DNA from: Clonostachys chloroleuca
Lineage: Eukaryota; Ascomycota; Sordariomycetes; Hypocreales; Bionectriaceae
Length of the DNA: 64,000 nt
Assembly (NCBI GenBank): GCA_037952775.1
Contig: JBANAY010000003.1
Span: forward strand, 30,504,001 to 30,568,000
Reading direction: 5' to 3'
Below, piece by piece: positions 14,287 to 62,332 of this stretch. Position 1 is the first letter of the stretch. Every line of letters starts with the position of its first letter. The position numbers and the translations under genes were made by a program. The notes below the pieces were generated by a model. That model saw nothing but the letters and a program-made list of their open reading frames with translations, was not told the origin of the DNA and made no database searches.

Positions 14287-15714
14287 CTACCCAAAGCGCA
14301 CGTGGCCATGGAAAGTGTTCCCTGAAACGACGAAGCCGGGGTTGGAAATGTTGATAGGCCCAATCGTCTCGGTGCCGAGTTGTGTGGGTCGAGACAATAC
14401 TTGTTGTCCATCTAATGTCGATCGCTGTCCCTGGCGCGACTGGCTCCACACGCGTCGGGGTTGTCTCCGGTTCAAGGACCTGTTGCTCGGTTGAGTAGCA
14501 ACCTCGCCCAGAGAGCTTTGGGAGTTCTGTTGCGCAGGCAGGCTCAGTTCTCTCCCATATGGAGAGAAAGATTGTGCCGAGGAATGTACTAGCGCCAGGC
14601 TGTTTTGTTCGTTGTCATCCCTGGCTTTCCGGATTTCACCAACCCATCTCATAATCTCTCCAGAAATAGAGCGGTATCCTTCATCCGACTCACTGGAGAA
14701 CTTAGTGATTTCCACATGATTGCCTGTGATTCCAATGGCAGTATATCCAGGCATTTCTGCCGAATGCCTAGGCACAATCTAAACGACCAAGTTAGCCAGC
14801 CCGCTAGAACGCCTGCCATCTAGATCTATTATAAGACAACTTACCTCTCCAAGTCCCTTGAAACCGCCATCTTCAAAAAAGCAGGTGATATTGAGGGCAG
14901 GTTGCCCTTGGATCTGACGGCCCCTGATCATGCTATGGAAATCGCTCTGGATGCGAGCCAATACCTCTGATTTCGGCTTCAAAACTCCTAATATGGCGGT
15001 GTTGGTTTTTTGGACAATGTTTCGCATCTGACAACAAATATATACCCAATTTGCCAGCGCTGATCCACAATGAGGTGTTCCTAGGAAGCAAACGCCATGA
15101 ATTAAGGTGTTGATTCGCTGAATGTGAGGCTCAGCGCTGCTCCGTGATACTAGCATTGCCTGACTCCGTGGTCAATAAATATGCTCTCTGCAATTCAACT
15201 GAGAAATCACGCTCACATCCTGGAAAACCAGCCCTCCGAGACTGTGTGTAACGAAAAGAATCGGACGATTTTCACTCTGTGTACGTTGACGGAGATGCGC
15301 TAGGTCGTTGATAAGGTTGGCTGCGTGGTCACGGATTCGATTCTGCGATGCGGCAGACCAAAAGTGACCAACATCAGCATCGTACCCGAAAGTAAGAATC
15401 CGAGTCTTGGGGACATCTAAACTAAGAAGATCCCTGGGCCAAAACACACGGCTGGGCTTGTGAGTCCAGGTGTTTACCCTGTTCCCGGTTAAGCCATGGA
15501 CGAATATGATGCTGGTTTTTGTTAGCTATGACGCGTCACTTTATTTCTAGAGGTAGGGGTGGGTTTGAACGTACTCTGCCACAGCATCCTCGGAATCATG
15601 ACAGGTCTCGAGGCCGTACGCCGCTCCTTCCGTGGAGTATTGGTCCCCGTCTGGAGCGTTGGCAGTTTTCAAAAGTTTTCTTTTAAAAGTCTTCATAGTC
15701 TTTCTCGAGACCAT
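14287..15714 (-). CDS. SesB-like alpha/beta-hydrolase (NLR-associated lipase) with C-terminal amyloid-type motif
   Basis: Four exons (15714-15575, 15511-15217, 15159-14845, 14778-14287) give about 413 residues. The core is the PGAP1-like/DUF676 serine hydrolase found as effector domain in fungal NLR systems. After the first intron comes IIFVHGLTGNRVNTWTHKP (oxyanion loop), later ILTFGYDAD, the nucleophile elbow FVTHSLGGLVFQD, FLGTPHCGSALANW, and a probable catalytic His in GNHVEITKF. A basic, low-complexity linker of about 100 residues (Ser/Gln/Arg-rich) leads to a tail ISNPGFVVSGNTFHGHVRFG ending at the stop. This tail resembles residues 23-42 of the divergently oriented NLR. In the known systems such a lipase is a membrane-damaging cell-death effector activated by amyloid templating from the NLR. 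Activity here is inferred; all catalytic motifs are intact and no frame breaks are seen. Confidence 0.85.
14290..14343 (-). other. Putative amyloid signalling motif, C-terminus of the lipase
   Basis: The last 18 residues, NPGFVVSGNTFHGHVRFG, form a short Gly/Asn-containing beta-prone motif after a disordered linker, as in effectors triggered by prion-like templating. Pattern shared with the NLR N-terminus: P-x5-G-N-x-F-x(3,4)-V-x-F-G. Confidence 0.6.
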
Positions 15715-16530
15715 CTTGCTTACTCGAATCAAGGTAATGATTACTGAATTGTGGAGAGGGAATAGTGCTCAATATATAGGGGCTGCGTATCGAGTACCGA
15801 GTTTGACATCCAACGTTCTATTTTGTAAGCCAGGCAGCGACTGTGCCGCTCTACAAGGCTCTCTCGAAGATGGCTGCAACCGCGTCTCTAAATCGCTGCG
15901 TTGGACGCAGCGTGACCAATAGCCGACCCTATGCGCCACTCTCATGCATCCGTTCCCTCCGATGCTTACTTGCCCGCACTTTTGTGCATTTGTAGCTGAG
16001 TATACTTGAGCCAGTTGGCGCGAAGGTCAAGCTCGACAACAAGACAAGGAATTAAAATATGATAAGAAGAATTTAAATTATGAGGAATTTCTAGGCAGAC
16101 AGTCTATCTATTTGGACTTTTTTTTTGATATGAATCTTGTTTGGGTATCTTTTGAATACGAAGAATATACGTCGCCCTTGCACGCCTCATTGATGATCCA
16201 AGGAGAGCTGAGTTGAATACGAAGAATATACGTCGCCCTTGCACTGCCTCATTGATGATCCAAGAAGAGCTGAGCTTGACGGCCCCCTCGGGACCAACAA
16301 GGCTCTGTCATCTGCCTACAAACTAGGCAAAATGAGACATAATGAGACACACCGGATTCGTAAGTATTCGCCATGTGGCATCTTTCCCTCCCCCTTCCCT
16401 CCTATGTCGATTATGCTATTCGCAGGGACCGCGCTCTCCTACATAACCTCTTATAGCTTCGAAATTGCCATTATAGCTCACACATCGCAGTTCCTCCAAA
16501 ACATCTGGAAAAGATACACCTATTCAAGCC
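15715..16530. promoter_or_regulatory. Shared divergent intergenic region of lipase and NLR
   Basis: The 816 bp between the two start codons must hold both promoters, consistent with co-regulation of an effector/receptor pair. It contains a near-perfect tandem duplication (16152-16274). No clear TATA box was identified. Confidence 0.5.
16152..16274. repeat. Tandem duplication, 61 + 62 bp
   Basis: Two adjacent copies, 16152-16212 and 16213-16274, both starting TTGAATACGAAGAATATACG and ending AGAGCTGAG. They differ by one inserted T and one G/A change. The duplication is recent, given so few differences, and lies in the space between the lipase and NLR genes. Confidence 0.9.
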
Positions 16531-17490
16531 ATGGCGATGATAAATAATCCATGTTCTGAGTTATCGCGGGAGCAACATGTTCCGGCCATGACGCTTAATC
16601 AGCCAGATGTTACATTTATTGGCAACAGATTTGAAAACAGTGAAGTCTTGTTTGGTTTGTGTAAAACCTAAGCAAATTAACTGAATGATCTATGCTAATG
16701 GAAATAAAAAGTGAATCGTTCCAAGACACCAAGAGAACTCGAAGCAGACTGCAAGCAGGCCCTAGGCTCAACAAACCCTGACGATCACCTGCGCGATATT
16801 CGTGCTAAAAAGCCTTCGCTTGTTGATGCCGATTATGAATGGGTTTTGCACAACAAGAAATTCCAAAAATGGATCGACGAACGAAACAAATCGCAACTTC
16901 TTTGGATTTCTGGAAGCCGCATGGGCGACAATACAATGATGTCAATCTACTTGATACGTGAACTGAGAGAAATGAAGAAATCCACAGTCTTATTTTTTTT
17001 CGTTGACAGCCGAGAGGAGGAGCGAAAAAGCGCCGTGGATATCCTCCGTGGTCTTATCCTTCTATTAGTAAAAGCTCGACCGAGCCTCCTACAACGTCAT
17101 CTGATTAAAGAATTCGAGTACCAACGCAAAGACTTGTTCAACAGCAAATATTCGCTGATGACTCTCTGGAAGATTTTTGCGACGATGGCCAGGGATCAAG
17201 AGACTGGAGACCTCATTATTATCATTGACGCTCTGGACGTGTGCGCAGAGGAGTCATTACGACCATTTCTGAGAAAGATTTGCGATTTTTTCAACCAGGA
17301 CTATTATACAAGCAAGAACTTTAATCAGAAACCGAAAAGGTCAGAATTGAATAACTCAATTAAACTGATAGTTCTGAGTCGAGAATACCCAGCACACCTC
17401 ACAGAGTCCTTGTCACGATTCCCTCGCATCAAGCTTAGACCCATGGTAAGGAGTGATGTTCCTCTAGTATTGAAAACACTCGCAATCTAA
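16531..17490 (+). CDS. Truncated NACHT NLR with N-terminal amyloid-type motif
   Basis: Two exons: 16531-16660 and 16712-17490, with a 51-base intron (GTAAAA...AAAAAG, CTAAT branch-like site). The short first exon encodes 43 residues with NQPDVTFIGNRFENSEVLFG, matching the tail of the lipase. The spliced frame runs directly into the fungal NLR linker (CKQALGSTNPDDHLRDIRAK, YEWVLHNKKFQKW) and a NACHT domain. The P-loop is GSRMGDNTMMS where GxxxxGKT is expected, so the lysine is lost. The Walker B-like strand is LIIIIDALDVC, with V where E is usual. The protein ends at about 302 residues, soon after an LSREYP segment. There is no WD40, ankyrin or TPR region. It is probably a decayed or minimal NLR that may still carry the seeding motif. 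Confidence 0.75.
16597..16656 (+). other. Putative amyloid signalling motif, N-terminus of the NLR
   Basis: Residues 23-42 of the spliced NLR. The spacing Pro-5 residues-Gly-Asn-x-Phe and the terminal Val-x-Phe-Gly match the lipase C-terminus, with a one-residue difference in the middle. N-terminal position on the receptor and C-terminal position on the effector is the arrangement of known fungal NLR/amyloid pairs. Confidence 0.6.
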
Positions 17491-17570
17491 TTCGGGATAG
17501 AAAACGGAGCGCCCTCCGCCCCTCCCTCCTCGGCAACCCAAGACTTTGACGAAGTCACCTGATAGCGGCT

Positions 17571-18669
17571 CTATACATGTATCGATAAAATCTTTTTGGG
17601 AGCGTTGTAAGCAAGAACTGGAAAATCTTCTGCGAAAATAACAAAAGGCGGAGAAGGAATCCTTGTTCCCTGACCGAGCGCGTACTCAAGGGCATTCACT
17701 GGACGCCCAACCTTGAGCTTCTTCATCTCGGACATGGGCAGCATTGGCGGATTATAGGTACCCGCATTGACCATACAGTCTTTAATAAAGCAGGCCCAGT
17801 AGGTTTTGGCTTCGATGGCTTGGGAATATCGGTCATGGACATGGTCATTGGAGGTCGGGTCGAGGGGATATGGGGCGGTACGCATGCTGTATAGCGCTTG
17901 CATCATGCGGATAGCCATGCCTATGATATTTAGTGCAAAGCCAAAAAAGGAACGAGATCAACATATTACCGCAGTACATCCATGCTTTGTGAAAGTCCCT
18001 AGTTCCCCATTCGTGAAGTGTGATTATCAGTAAGGCTTGAACAAACTCGATCTTAGGACTTCCTAAAAGAGCCTCTAAAAGTCTCGCTCTCATATATTCA
18101 GCATACTCCTCTCGCGACCGCAAGGTATCTGTCCATGGTACGTCTGCTGGCTCAAGTCTTGCCTTTATAACGGTGAGGACAGCAGCAAAGAGGATCTTGT
18201 GTTGCGGTAGACATGGACTAGATGCGAAGCCACCCATCAAAGCCAGCACATGAATGATGGTAAGCTCTGGGAACTGGTTCGAGAACGTTTTTAGTATCGC
18301 TAGTTTTCTGCTCGTGGAGATTTGAGACATGTGTTCGTCGATATCTGCTGATCCAACATGGCCGGGACCAAGGCCACCTTGGTTTCCTGACGCGTCTGCC
18401 GAAAGCCGAAGACTTCCTACGAAGGTCTGAGTTGAACGACTGCATGCCATTGGACTCTAGTTGCGGCCGCGTTGCCCTGAGAATCGGCTTTTTGATGGGC
18501 GTCGTGAGTTGGCACCCTGGGAAACCCGACCGCTCGCATCTTTGGCATGGCGATCTGCCCTTATGAACGGATTTCCTGAGCGGGAAACTTGGTCAACGGC
18601 ATGCAAACGACGCCAACCCTATGGACTGTTCACTCACCTACAAGCATCGCACGATAAGCTCGATCGCAT
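17571..18669 (-). pseudogene. Decayed Zn2Cys6 regulator, truncated at the C-terminus
   Basis: A short exon (18669-18638) reads MRSSLSCDACR, followed by a 62-base intron and then RKSVHKGRSPCQRC and FPGCQL. This is a Zn2Cys6 cluster in which the third Cys is missing: a canonical cluster would have RxKC where KSVHK stands. The middle homology region follows in a different frame (from about 18450): FPELTIIHVLALMGGF, VQALLIITLHEWG, HKAWMYCG. After an intron near 17860-17920 come MAIRMMQALYS, YWACFIKDC and AGTYNPPMLPMSEMKKLKVG. A frame change between about 18400 and 18470 is required. The protein stops at ILSIHV, well short of the usual length for this family. It is a relic, related to the fragment at 11599-11838. 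Confidence 0.65.
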
Positions 18670-60156: not shown

Positions 60157-61191
60157 ATGATCGTCCCTCATCTTACCAACATGCCCCCAAGCAGTTTCCC
60201 AGACGACTACAACGAGGGCACACACCCACAAACCCTGGACAAACTCTGTGAAACCAATCTCTCACAGCAAAAGCCATACGGGGCCGATGAGTACTCCGAT
60301 AGGGCCAAAGAATATCTCCGAAGAAGTTGCAGTCTCCTGATGCCGCAATTTATTTTGTTGCGAGCGGCACCCTTGCCAACATGATAACAATTGCAAACTG
60401 CCTGCGCCCACACGAAGCCGTCATCTCGGCCAGTACTGGGTATATCTTGGTTAGAGAGACCGGCGCAATCGAGGCCATAAGGCACAAGATCATCGTTGTT
60501 GATCAAGAAAACGGGAAATTAACACCTAAGGGTATACAAAATGCGCTAAACAAGAATGCACACTACCCTCATATGGCGAAGCCTCGGCTTGTGTATCTGT
60601 CAAACACTCTCTATACCAAGGCCGAGCTGACAGCTATCTCCGCCCCATGTCGAAAACGCGGCCCGATTGTCTTCCTTGATGGCGCTCGTCTCGGAGCCGC
60701 CCTGTCAGCGATAAAGAATGACATGACACTACCAGACCTGGTCCGATTAACAGACCTCTTCCGGATTGGCGGCACCAAGGTGGGAATGCTCCTCGGCGAA
60801 GCCATTGTTATCAACAACAAAGCACTTGCAGAAGACTTCTCGTTCGATATTAAGCAACGCGGAGGCCTCCTCGCTAAGGATCGGATCCTCGGAGTCCAGT
60901 TCCTGGATGTTCCGTTCCAATCTCTACTTTGAGTTGGCGAAGCACGCCAACGAAATGGCACAGCTCCTGTCCTCTGGTCTTACGGGCGCAGGATACGAGT
61001 TGGATGCTGAAACAGAAACTAACCAGGTGTTTGATATTCTACCAAATGCCCTAATTGCAAAGCTTCAAAACGACTTTCAATTCTATATATGGGAACAAGT
61101 TCCTGACGATGAGGCTGTAGTTCGGCTTGTCACTTCATGGGCAACGAGCAAAGAGCAGGTCTCCGCCTTCGTGAAAAGGTTATATGGCTAA
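60157..61191 (+). pseudogene. Broken PLP-dependent beta-eliminating lyase / threonine-aldolase-like gene
   Basis: Three consecutive frames together encode a fold-type I PLP enzyme of the beta-eliminating lyase family. Frame 1: PDDYNEGTHPQTLDKLCETN and KPYGADEYSDRAKEYLR. Frame 2: LQSPDAAIYFVASGTLANMI, LDGARLGAALSA, and IGGTKVGMLLGEAIV with the probable cofactor Lys. Frame 3: MFRSNLYFELAKHANEMAQL and the C-terminal domain to a stop at 61191. Frame changes are needed near 60325-60330 and near 60910-60920. The catalytic core in frame 2 is intact. No introns could explain the shifts. A loop before LYTKAELTAIS is shorter than usual. It is most likely a pseudogene, with two sequencing errors as the alternative. 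Confidence 0.7.
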
Positions 61192-61435
61192 GATTAAGTA
61201 ATACACAAATTATAGAGGGTTTTTTTATTTAACCCTGATGGTTATTATTGTGTGTTTTGAGGTTTAGGACACGGGACCTCAGCTGTGTAGTCATGAGTTT
61301 TGCAAGCATGACTATGTGTGCAACTTGGTCTGTTCGGCTCGTACCGGTAAGCCAGACATGATAAGGTATAGGTTCAAACAGGAAAATAAGTACTTGTTGT
61401 AGTAGCTCTATACTTGAATATGATCATCCCCGCCG

Positions 61436-61477
<42 letters not shown>

Positions 61478-62332
61478 GAAACGCAGCGAGACTTGGAAAG
61501 GCGAAGATCAGTGGGGCTGGACGTGCGTGCGAATCCGACAGGGGCATGCTTTCCATGTTGAACTCTCTCTACTCTGTTGTCTTCTTGATTGGGCGCAGAC
61601 TTGGCGCTCGGTCACTTGTTGATGTGCACTCAGTTGATCTCGGCGCGTTCGGACTCTTCCAGACACACCAGCCATTATACCGAATACGCCGAATGACAAG
61701 TTAACACGGCAGACACGCTCACGTGGGGTGAGTATAGCACTTGGCTACGCCCATGTCCACGCACACAATGGCAGATCTCAGTTGAACCGGCTGTACTGGC
61801 GATATGCTGATCTGCCACTGGAGTAAAGCGAGTGTTTGGTTAGCCTGAGGTGCGTCTATACGTCCCTCTATTGGGTTTTCTCAATTCCAGTGTTCTCCAG
61901 TACTACACGGCGTGCTTTAGGGGCACCAACGCCTACCAGGGCGACGACGGGAAACTTCGTCTCTTTTAGACCGACTTCAACTTCAAATTTATGCTAGATT
62001 AATCTTTGATACCTCAGCTCTGGGCTGTCTCCTCGGCGACTTTGTAGCTCTTGAAGCAGCACAGAGACTTCCTCGCGATCGAAAAGGCGAGACATTGTAC
62101 CTCAGGCGAACCCATACCGGAACTACCGCTTCACTTGGCGTGCACACTCTAAAGTGTGATTTGTATTTGACGCATGTTTGGTTCAAGGCGTGATTTATCC
62201 ACTGTTTACTTCCCTTTACTGTACTAGTAACTTCTGGAAAGAAATTACGCTTCGCAGCCTTATTAGATAGATCGCTAAATCCGGAAATATTCTCTGGAAA
62301 GTTGGAAAATGGACAAACTCTCATTTAGACTA
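61192..62332. other. Intergenic, with microsatellite
   Basis: About 1.1 kb between the PLP relic and the reductase gene. A minus-strand open stretch (61989-62324) ends immediately upstream of nothing recognisable and could not be identified; otherwise non-coding. Confidence 0.4.
61438..61477. repeat. (ACT)n microsatellite
   Basis: About thirteen perfect ACT units in tandem, in non-coding sequence. Confidence 0.95.

Follow-up and report, generated by a model that had tools for sequence, protein, structure and literature searches.

A putative HRAM-like segment on a SesB-like lipase and its probably dead NLR neighbour in Clonostachys chloroleuca

A 64-kb stretch of the Clonostachys chloroleuca genome (contig C3, positions 30,504,001-30,568,000 of a four-contig, 59.4-Mb assembly; hereafter the window), whose gene families and introns are of fungal type, carries a gene for a SesB-like lipase and, divergent from it, a gene for a NOD-like receptor (NLR) with a NACHT core. 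We consider the two best explained as a decayed NLR/effector amyloid pair that resembles HET-S/NWD2 and has a lipase as its effector, a reading to which we give about even credence. It is supported by the divergent 816-bp layout, by exons arranged like those of a pseudo-palindrome (PP) motif triad in the same genome, by matches of both proteins to the HET-s-related amyloid motif (HRAM) template and by loss-of-function marks in the receptor. The gene anatomy, the retained active-site residues of the lipase, the HRAM register at both termini, the lost Walker A lysine and the missing sensor are direct observations. A preliminary description had reported the divergent pair, a 51-nt NLR intron and a 43-residue segment at the start of the NLR; its coordinates, strands and translations proved correct when re-derived from the sequence, the only source for these gene models, and all three features stand.

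Gene anatomy and the segment at the two termini

The features of the pair, in window coordinates, are as follows.

14287..15714, minus strand: SesB-like alpha/beta-hydrolase (lipase) gene, four exons by predicted splicing, 413 residues, intact
14290..14313, minus strand: aromatic/Gly tail FHGHVRFG at the C-terminal end of the lipase, 3' of the motif
14314..14376, minus strand: HRAM-like segment of the lipase, GTETIGPINISNPGFVVSGNT, residues 385-405, four of five core hydrophobics, G19-N20
15715..16530, no strand: divergent intergenic region, 816 bp from ATG to ATG
16531..16660, plus strand: predicted motif-bearing NLR exon 1, ATG at 16531, 130 nt (43 codons plus one base)
16567..16629, plus strand: HRAM-like segment of the NLR, REQHVPAMTLNQPDVTFIGNR, residues 13-33, four of five core hydrophobics, G19-N20
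16661..16711, plus strand: NLR intron proposed from the sequence alone, 51 nt, phase 1, GTAAAA...GCTAATG...AAG, GCTAATG being branch-like
16712..17490, plus strand: NLR exon 2, NACHT/NPHP3_N core (PF24883), stop codon right behind the core
16912..16935, plus strand: Walker A site of the NLR, GSRMGDNT, Lys replaced by Asn and PG lost

The four lipase exons (15714-15575, 15511-15217, 15159-14845 and 14778-14287) are separated by predicted GT-AG introns of 63, 57 and 66 nt. The product matches PF05057 (DUF676) with an E-value of 4e-6, above the family cut-off, and keeps a nucleophile Ser (THSLGG) and a His (GNHVEITKF). In an alignment, the Ser of HS[LM]GG, the E of FxE and the His are common to the lipase and its genomic homologues L025, L026 and L027; which acid is catalytic is a putative assignment. 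The name SesB-like is not given by any profile for the catalytic part, and we use it because the lipase resembles, at 42% over 76 residues (3.1e-7), the lipase frame beside a PP tail in the same genome. The features expected of a SesB-like lipase are all present: alpha/beta-hydrolase membership, HS[LM]GG, an acid, a His and kinship to a lipase that bears an amyloid motif. Behind the catalytic domain and a linker of about 80 residues follows the tail GTETIGPINISNPGFVVSGNTFHGHVRFG, and the protein ends in NPGFVVSGNTFHGHVRFG, directly before the stop codon. The predicted NLR product has 302 residues, the first 43 of which are the motif segment, and its NACHT core matches positions 4-153 of the 164 of PF24883 (3.4e-25). 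The intergenic region also holds a 61-bp tandem duplication (16152-16279; 2.1 copies, 95% matches).

The same plan is found in the canonical PP triad at C4:8,855,047-8,860,837 (loci L011 and L052). Its members, a HeLo protein, a SesB-like lipase and a NACHT receptor, each carry a Gln-centred PP motif that PF17046 recognises (E-values of 8.6e-7, 3.2e-11 and 1.4e-3, respectively; 1.1e-12 for the lipase tail). The PP-NLR has a motif exon, a short phase-1 intron (splice placed by eye) and then the NACHT domain, and the triad lipase carries its motif at its end. Five further lipase or lipase-NLR loci were viewed closely, with the NB-ARC part judged by eye rather than by profiles. In four of them (L069, at C3:5157500-5167400, L070, L072 and L073) a SesB-like frame appears to lie upstream of NACHT/NB-ARC-like frames on the same strand, which by eye is the layout of an all-in-one receptor; the fifth (L071) is a lone lipase locus with no motif visible by eye.

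The preliminary description had drawn the motif as P-x5-GN-x-F-x(3,4)-V-x-FG and had not equated it confidently with a named class. This agrees with the lack of matches to any Pfam amyloid-motif profile, but the motif was probably cut too short: its upstream extension largely fits the HRAM register, so that the pattern first drawn would only close a longer HRAM-like segment present in single copy. The HRAM template, according to the sections of the cited papers available (which holds for all literature used here), has hydrophobic residues at positions 5, 8, 10, 16 and 18 and Gly at position 19 (PMC4518210), and a G[DN] pair closes it (PMC9815663). We scored it with V, I, L, M, F, Y, W or A as hydrophobic at the five positions, G at 19 and D or N next. 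With GN set as G19-N20, the lipase reads, from position 2, T-E-T-I5-G-P-I8-N-I10-S-N-P-G-F-V16-V-S-G19-N20, and the NLR E-Q-H-V5-P-A-M8-T-L10-N-Q-P-D-V-T-F-I18-G19-N20. Each protein thus has four of the five core positions and the Gly, ungapped and in one register, the lipase missing position 18 and the NLR position 16; Pro at 13 and Phe at 22 are also common to both. The shuffle p values are 0.0073 for the lipase and 0.0092 for the NLR. Each whole protein contains a single match, on the GN, at the C-terminus of the lipase and the N-terminus of the NLR. As background, 28 matches occur in 72,521 residues from 247 other stop-to-stop frames, with one in the 247 tails and two in 206 heads; these frames are at least 150 residues long, exclude the window pair and are not all real genes. 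The stretches after GN (TFHGHVRFG and RFENSEVLFG) would then correspond to the aromatic, Gly-containing tail that often stands behind HRAM repeats (PMC4518210).

Strength of the similarity and alternative explanations

Several results weigh against a common HRAM-like motif. The template was chosen post hoc, after several families had been viewed, and its odds should be discounted several-fold. If D or N is not required after the Gly, the match is not unusual (shuffle p of 0.079 for the lipase and 0.070 for the NLR). The lipase has Ser at position 18, the NLR has Thr at position 16, and neither has Arg or Lys at position 15. A template scan of the whole lipase gives the effector one motif copy instead of two pseudo-repeats, an arrangement for which single-copy HRAM3-like effectors exist in print (PMC9815663). 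Neither segment is matched by PF11558, PF17108, PF17046 or PF17106. A whole-genome search with each segment found only the segment itself, with no partner or second copy at E<=10, and a profile of both segments retrieved no solved amyloid from the PDB. The direct alignment is weak as well, with a score of 27 under BLOSUM62 11/1 (shuffle p of 0.03, 20,000 shuffles), which is reached or exceeded by 2,471 of 60,000 random pairs of an open reading frame (ORF) tail and an ORF head. On the test applied to the triad, the window pair gives p values of 0.016-0.033, versus 0.0002-0.001 for the three segment pairs of the PP triad; it is far less alike than those live segments.

Some of these numbers depend on the settings. 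Under BLOSUM62 11/1, the score was reached against the NLR head by three of 201 other tails and against the lipase tail by nine of 196 other heads. At a gap cost of 5 the p value is 0.001, and the score is equalled by 157 of the 60,000 random pairs, none of the 201 tails and two of the 196 heads. Overall, the similarity has shuffle p values of 0.001-0.03 that vary with gap cost and segment length. The evidence for an amyloid motif common to both genes is moderate, not strong.

The searches differ in weight. PF11558 had no match across the whole genome, a weak negative since control genomes also lacked matches and since this profile recovered 38 of 155 HRAM proteins (PMC4518210). For PF17108 and PF17106, all genome-wide matches stayed below cut-off, and none lay in the window. 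The window segments have neither the sigma motif (GxGxQFN or GGTQNINT repeats, PF17106) nor the PP motif (Gln-centred NxGxQxGxN core, PF17046), and the PP triad, as positive control, was matched. The genome searches with the segments are insensitive, such that copies as diverged as the window pair go undetected; at that low sensitivity, no sister receptor bearing this motif came up genome-wide. A phmmer search with the segments through 8,362 pieces of reading frames from the fetched loci, with the six loci of the window set aside, gave nothing convincing (best E of 1.6 among the first-query matches listed). Single segments retrieved no amyloid from the PDB, and the NLR segment had two chance matches (E of 1.4-1.5). 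When the HRAM template was run over 17 HeLo loci, no convincing HeLo tail emerged among the nine matches, which were scattered across the three coding-strand frames. A PF15520 match to the isolated lipase tail (E of 0.027; 14.8 bits, cut-off 26.8) was taken as chance.

The first alternative is coincidence: a stand-alone SesB-like lipase would lie beside an unrelated, degenerate NACHT fragment, and two segments rich in Gly, Asn and Phe would be alike by chance. Such a juxtaposition gains from the abundance of these gene types, the genome having at least 48 NACHT matches (one in the window, at least 47 others) and at least 46 lipase matches (four being exons of the window lipase itself, at least 42 others). 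Coincidence also gains from the decay of the receptor, and the 2,471 equal or better random pairs amount to 4%. What makes coincidence unlikely in our judgement is that exactly these gene types are adjacent, that the motif sits at both expected ends with one HRAM match per protein there, and that the exon layout matches that of a PP-NLR.

That the motif is a strongly diverged PP (RHIM-like) motif appears distinctly unlikely. PP-motif lipases are known (PMC3321046, PMC5485727) and one is encoded in this very genome; moreover, the N-x-G-F-x-V...VRFG of the window lipase resembles the N-S-G-F-Q-I...GVRFG of the triad HeLo protein, with I-G-N and V-x-F-G still present in the NLR. The comparison of the lipase tail with the HeLo PP tail gave p values of 0.08, 0.02 and 0.004 at gap costs of 11, 8 and 5, but those with the other two PP segments gave 0.10-0.19, and those of the NLR segment with all three PP segments 0.06-0.63. 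The window motif has neither the central Gln nor the GxN half, and PF17046, which matches the triad, does not match the window.

A further, undescribed class of amyloid motif of the form first drawn, favoured by the absence of matching Pfam amyloid-motif profiles and by a conserved F..V.FG end outside the HRAM core, seems hardly probable, as it would be founded on two sequences of marginal similarity, with the strict pattern absent from all 45 other NLR and lipase loci that were scanned together with 1.5-kb flanks and no second copy in the genome at the low sensitivity of that search.

Probable receptor decay and a possible ancestral switch

The preliminary description had presented the locus as an NLR/effector amyloid pair. 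The architecture is indeed that of known pairs and of the PP triad, but the description had overlooked that the receptor looks dead, with its Walker A lysine and its C-terminal repeats gone. The Walker A site reads GSRMGDNT instead of GK[ST] despite the PF24883 match, whereas all 19 homologous loci read, out of the 47 other NACHT matches, keep GK[ST] (L003-L021; 12 by script and seven by eye, the latter with Ala for the first Gly). The Asn stands at the place of NWD2 K83, and the K83N and K83R mutations abolish NWD2 activity (PMC4344463). The reading frame stops at 17490 after the NACHT core, while the best homologue (L003) continues in-frame for more than 130 residues. No continuation of the NLR was seen among the downstream plus-strand frames, and the two of at least 100 residues contain no Pfam family above cut-off that could represent a C-terminal repeat sensor. 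Judged by these marks the receptor is probably dead, and because both the P-loop lysine and the sensor part are lost, a live receptor-effector switch is unlikely in this genome.

Two features adjoin the truncated receptor.

17491..17570, no strand: G+C-rich spacer (0.60), 80 bp, between two 3'-truncated genes, candidate deletion or rearrangement junction
17571..18456, minus strand: Fungal_trans transcription-factor fragment with its 3' end cut (PF04082 positions 56-179 of 262, spliced model)

One deletion between the convergent NLR and transcription-factor genes would explain both cuts. The fragment is part of a Zn2Cys6 transcription-factor remnant on the minus strand (17571-18600), in which a zinc-cluster-like stretch was noticed by eye upstream, in another frame. 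Repeat-induced point mutation (RIP) as a cause of the decay is unsupported, with indices of 0.58 and 1.34 for the NLR. Elsewhere in the window, RIP-like dinucleotide indices mark positions 61001-62000 (TA/AT of 1.23, second index of 0.98); none of the other 63 of the 64 kilobase steps has a second index under 1.03.

For the decayed pair that we favour, the ancestral mechanism can be modelled on the precedents of HET-S/NWD2 and SBP/PNT1, from which both amyloid templating and lipase toxicity are inferred. Equipped with a sensor at its C-terminus, the NACHT receptor would have bound ligand and ATP and oligomerised, and the oligomer would have clustered the N-terminal HRAM-like segments so that they folded cooperatively into a beta-arch amyloid. 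This amyloid would have templated the corresponding C-terminal segment of the SesB-like lipase encoded next to it, and the lipase would have clustered and switched on, leading to membrane damage and cell death. The present receptor stub is probably without the usual ligand- and ATP-dependent signalling, and the intact lipase would either be orphaned or depend for its seeding on the rare event of the stub assembling spontaneously. The stub could still occasionally seed the lipase, because at high expression in yeast NWD2 lacking its WD repeats bypasses the ligand, and because NWD2(1-30)-GFP assembles spontaneously; a short NWD2 form was insufficient in mammalian cells (PMC4344463). There is a slender chance that the single HRAM-like motif on the SesB-like lipase and the P-loop-less stub, acting as a ligand-free seed, form a prion-type lipase switch comparable to het-s strains, in which nwd2 is a pseudogene (PMC4344463). 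These strains are a partial precedent only, because the partner protein there has itself lost its toxicity.

Comparison with known amyloid-signalling pairs

The window pair is most readily compared with HET-S/NWD2 of Podospora anserina and other fungi, where the two genes are likewise divergent neighbours and the motif lies at the C-terminus of the effector and the N-terminus of the receptor (PMC4344463, PMC9815663). The nwd2/het-S spacing is 0.6 kb (PMC4344463), and the HRAM of that system has a hydrophobic/polar pattern, matched in each window protein at four of five core positions, and the same G-[DN] end (PMC4518210). The window differs in that its effector is a SesB-like lipase and not a HeLo protein, carries one motif copy and not two, and has deviations at positions 15, 16 or 18; its receptor is without the P-loop lysine and repeats. 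With the SBP lipase/PNT1/HELLP PP cluster of Chaetomium globosum the window shares a lipase with a C-terminal motif beside an NLR with a motif exon and a phase-1 intron, but its motif lacks the Gln-centred palindrome, PF17046 does not match and there is no HeLo match in the window. The sigma locus of Nectria haematococca (SESB/SESA/HET-eN) also combines a lipase with an NLR, whose motif had escaped annotation because of a 5' intron in the NLR gene (PMC3321046); unlike that locus, the window has no sigma repeats and no PF17106 match. In the HRAM3-like NLR12/PNP_UDP pairs, too, the effector is an enzyme that bears a single HRAM-type copy (PMC9815663), but the enzyme is a different one, and those pairs are adjacent in few cases only.

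In the available sections of the literature on fungal amyloid motifs, lipases occur with PP and sigma motifs, whereas HRAMs occur with HeLo, HeLo-like and PNP_UDP effectors (PMC3321046, PMC5485727, PMC9815663); a SesB-like lipase bearing an HRAM-type motif was not encountered there. An HRAM-like motif on a SesB-like lipase is plausibly a new combination within a known type of pair. If so, HRAM signalling extends to a lipase effector, beyond pore-forming HeLo and PNP_UDP proteins, and amyloid tags and killing enzymes would seem to be interchangeable parts. The locus would, in addition, exemplify in nature an amyloid pair with a dead receptor and a catalytically complete effector, in contrast to het-s strains, where the partner of the nwd2 pseudogene lost its toxicity, and it would allow the fate of effector and motif after receptor loss to be asked.

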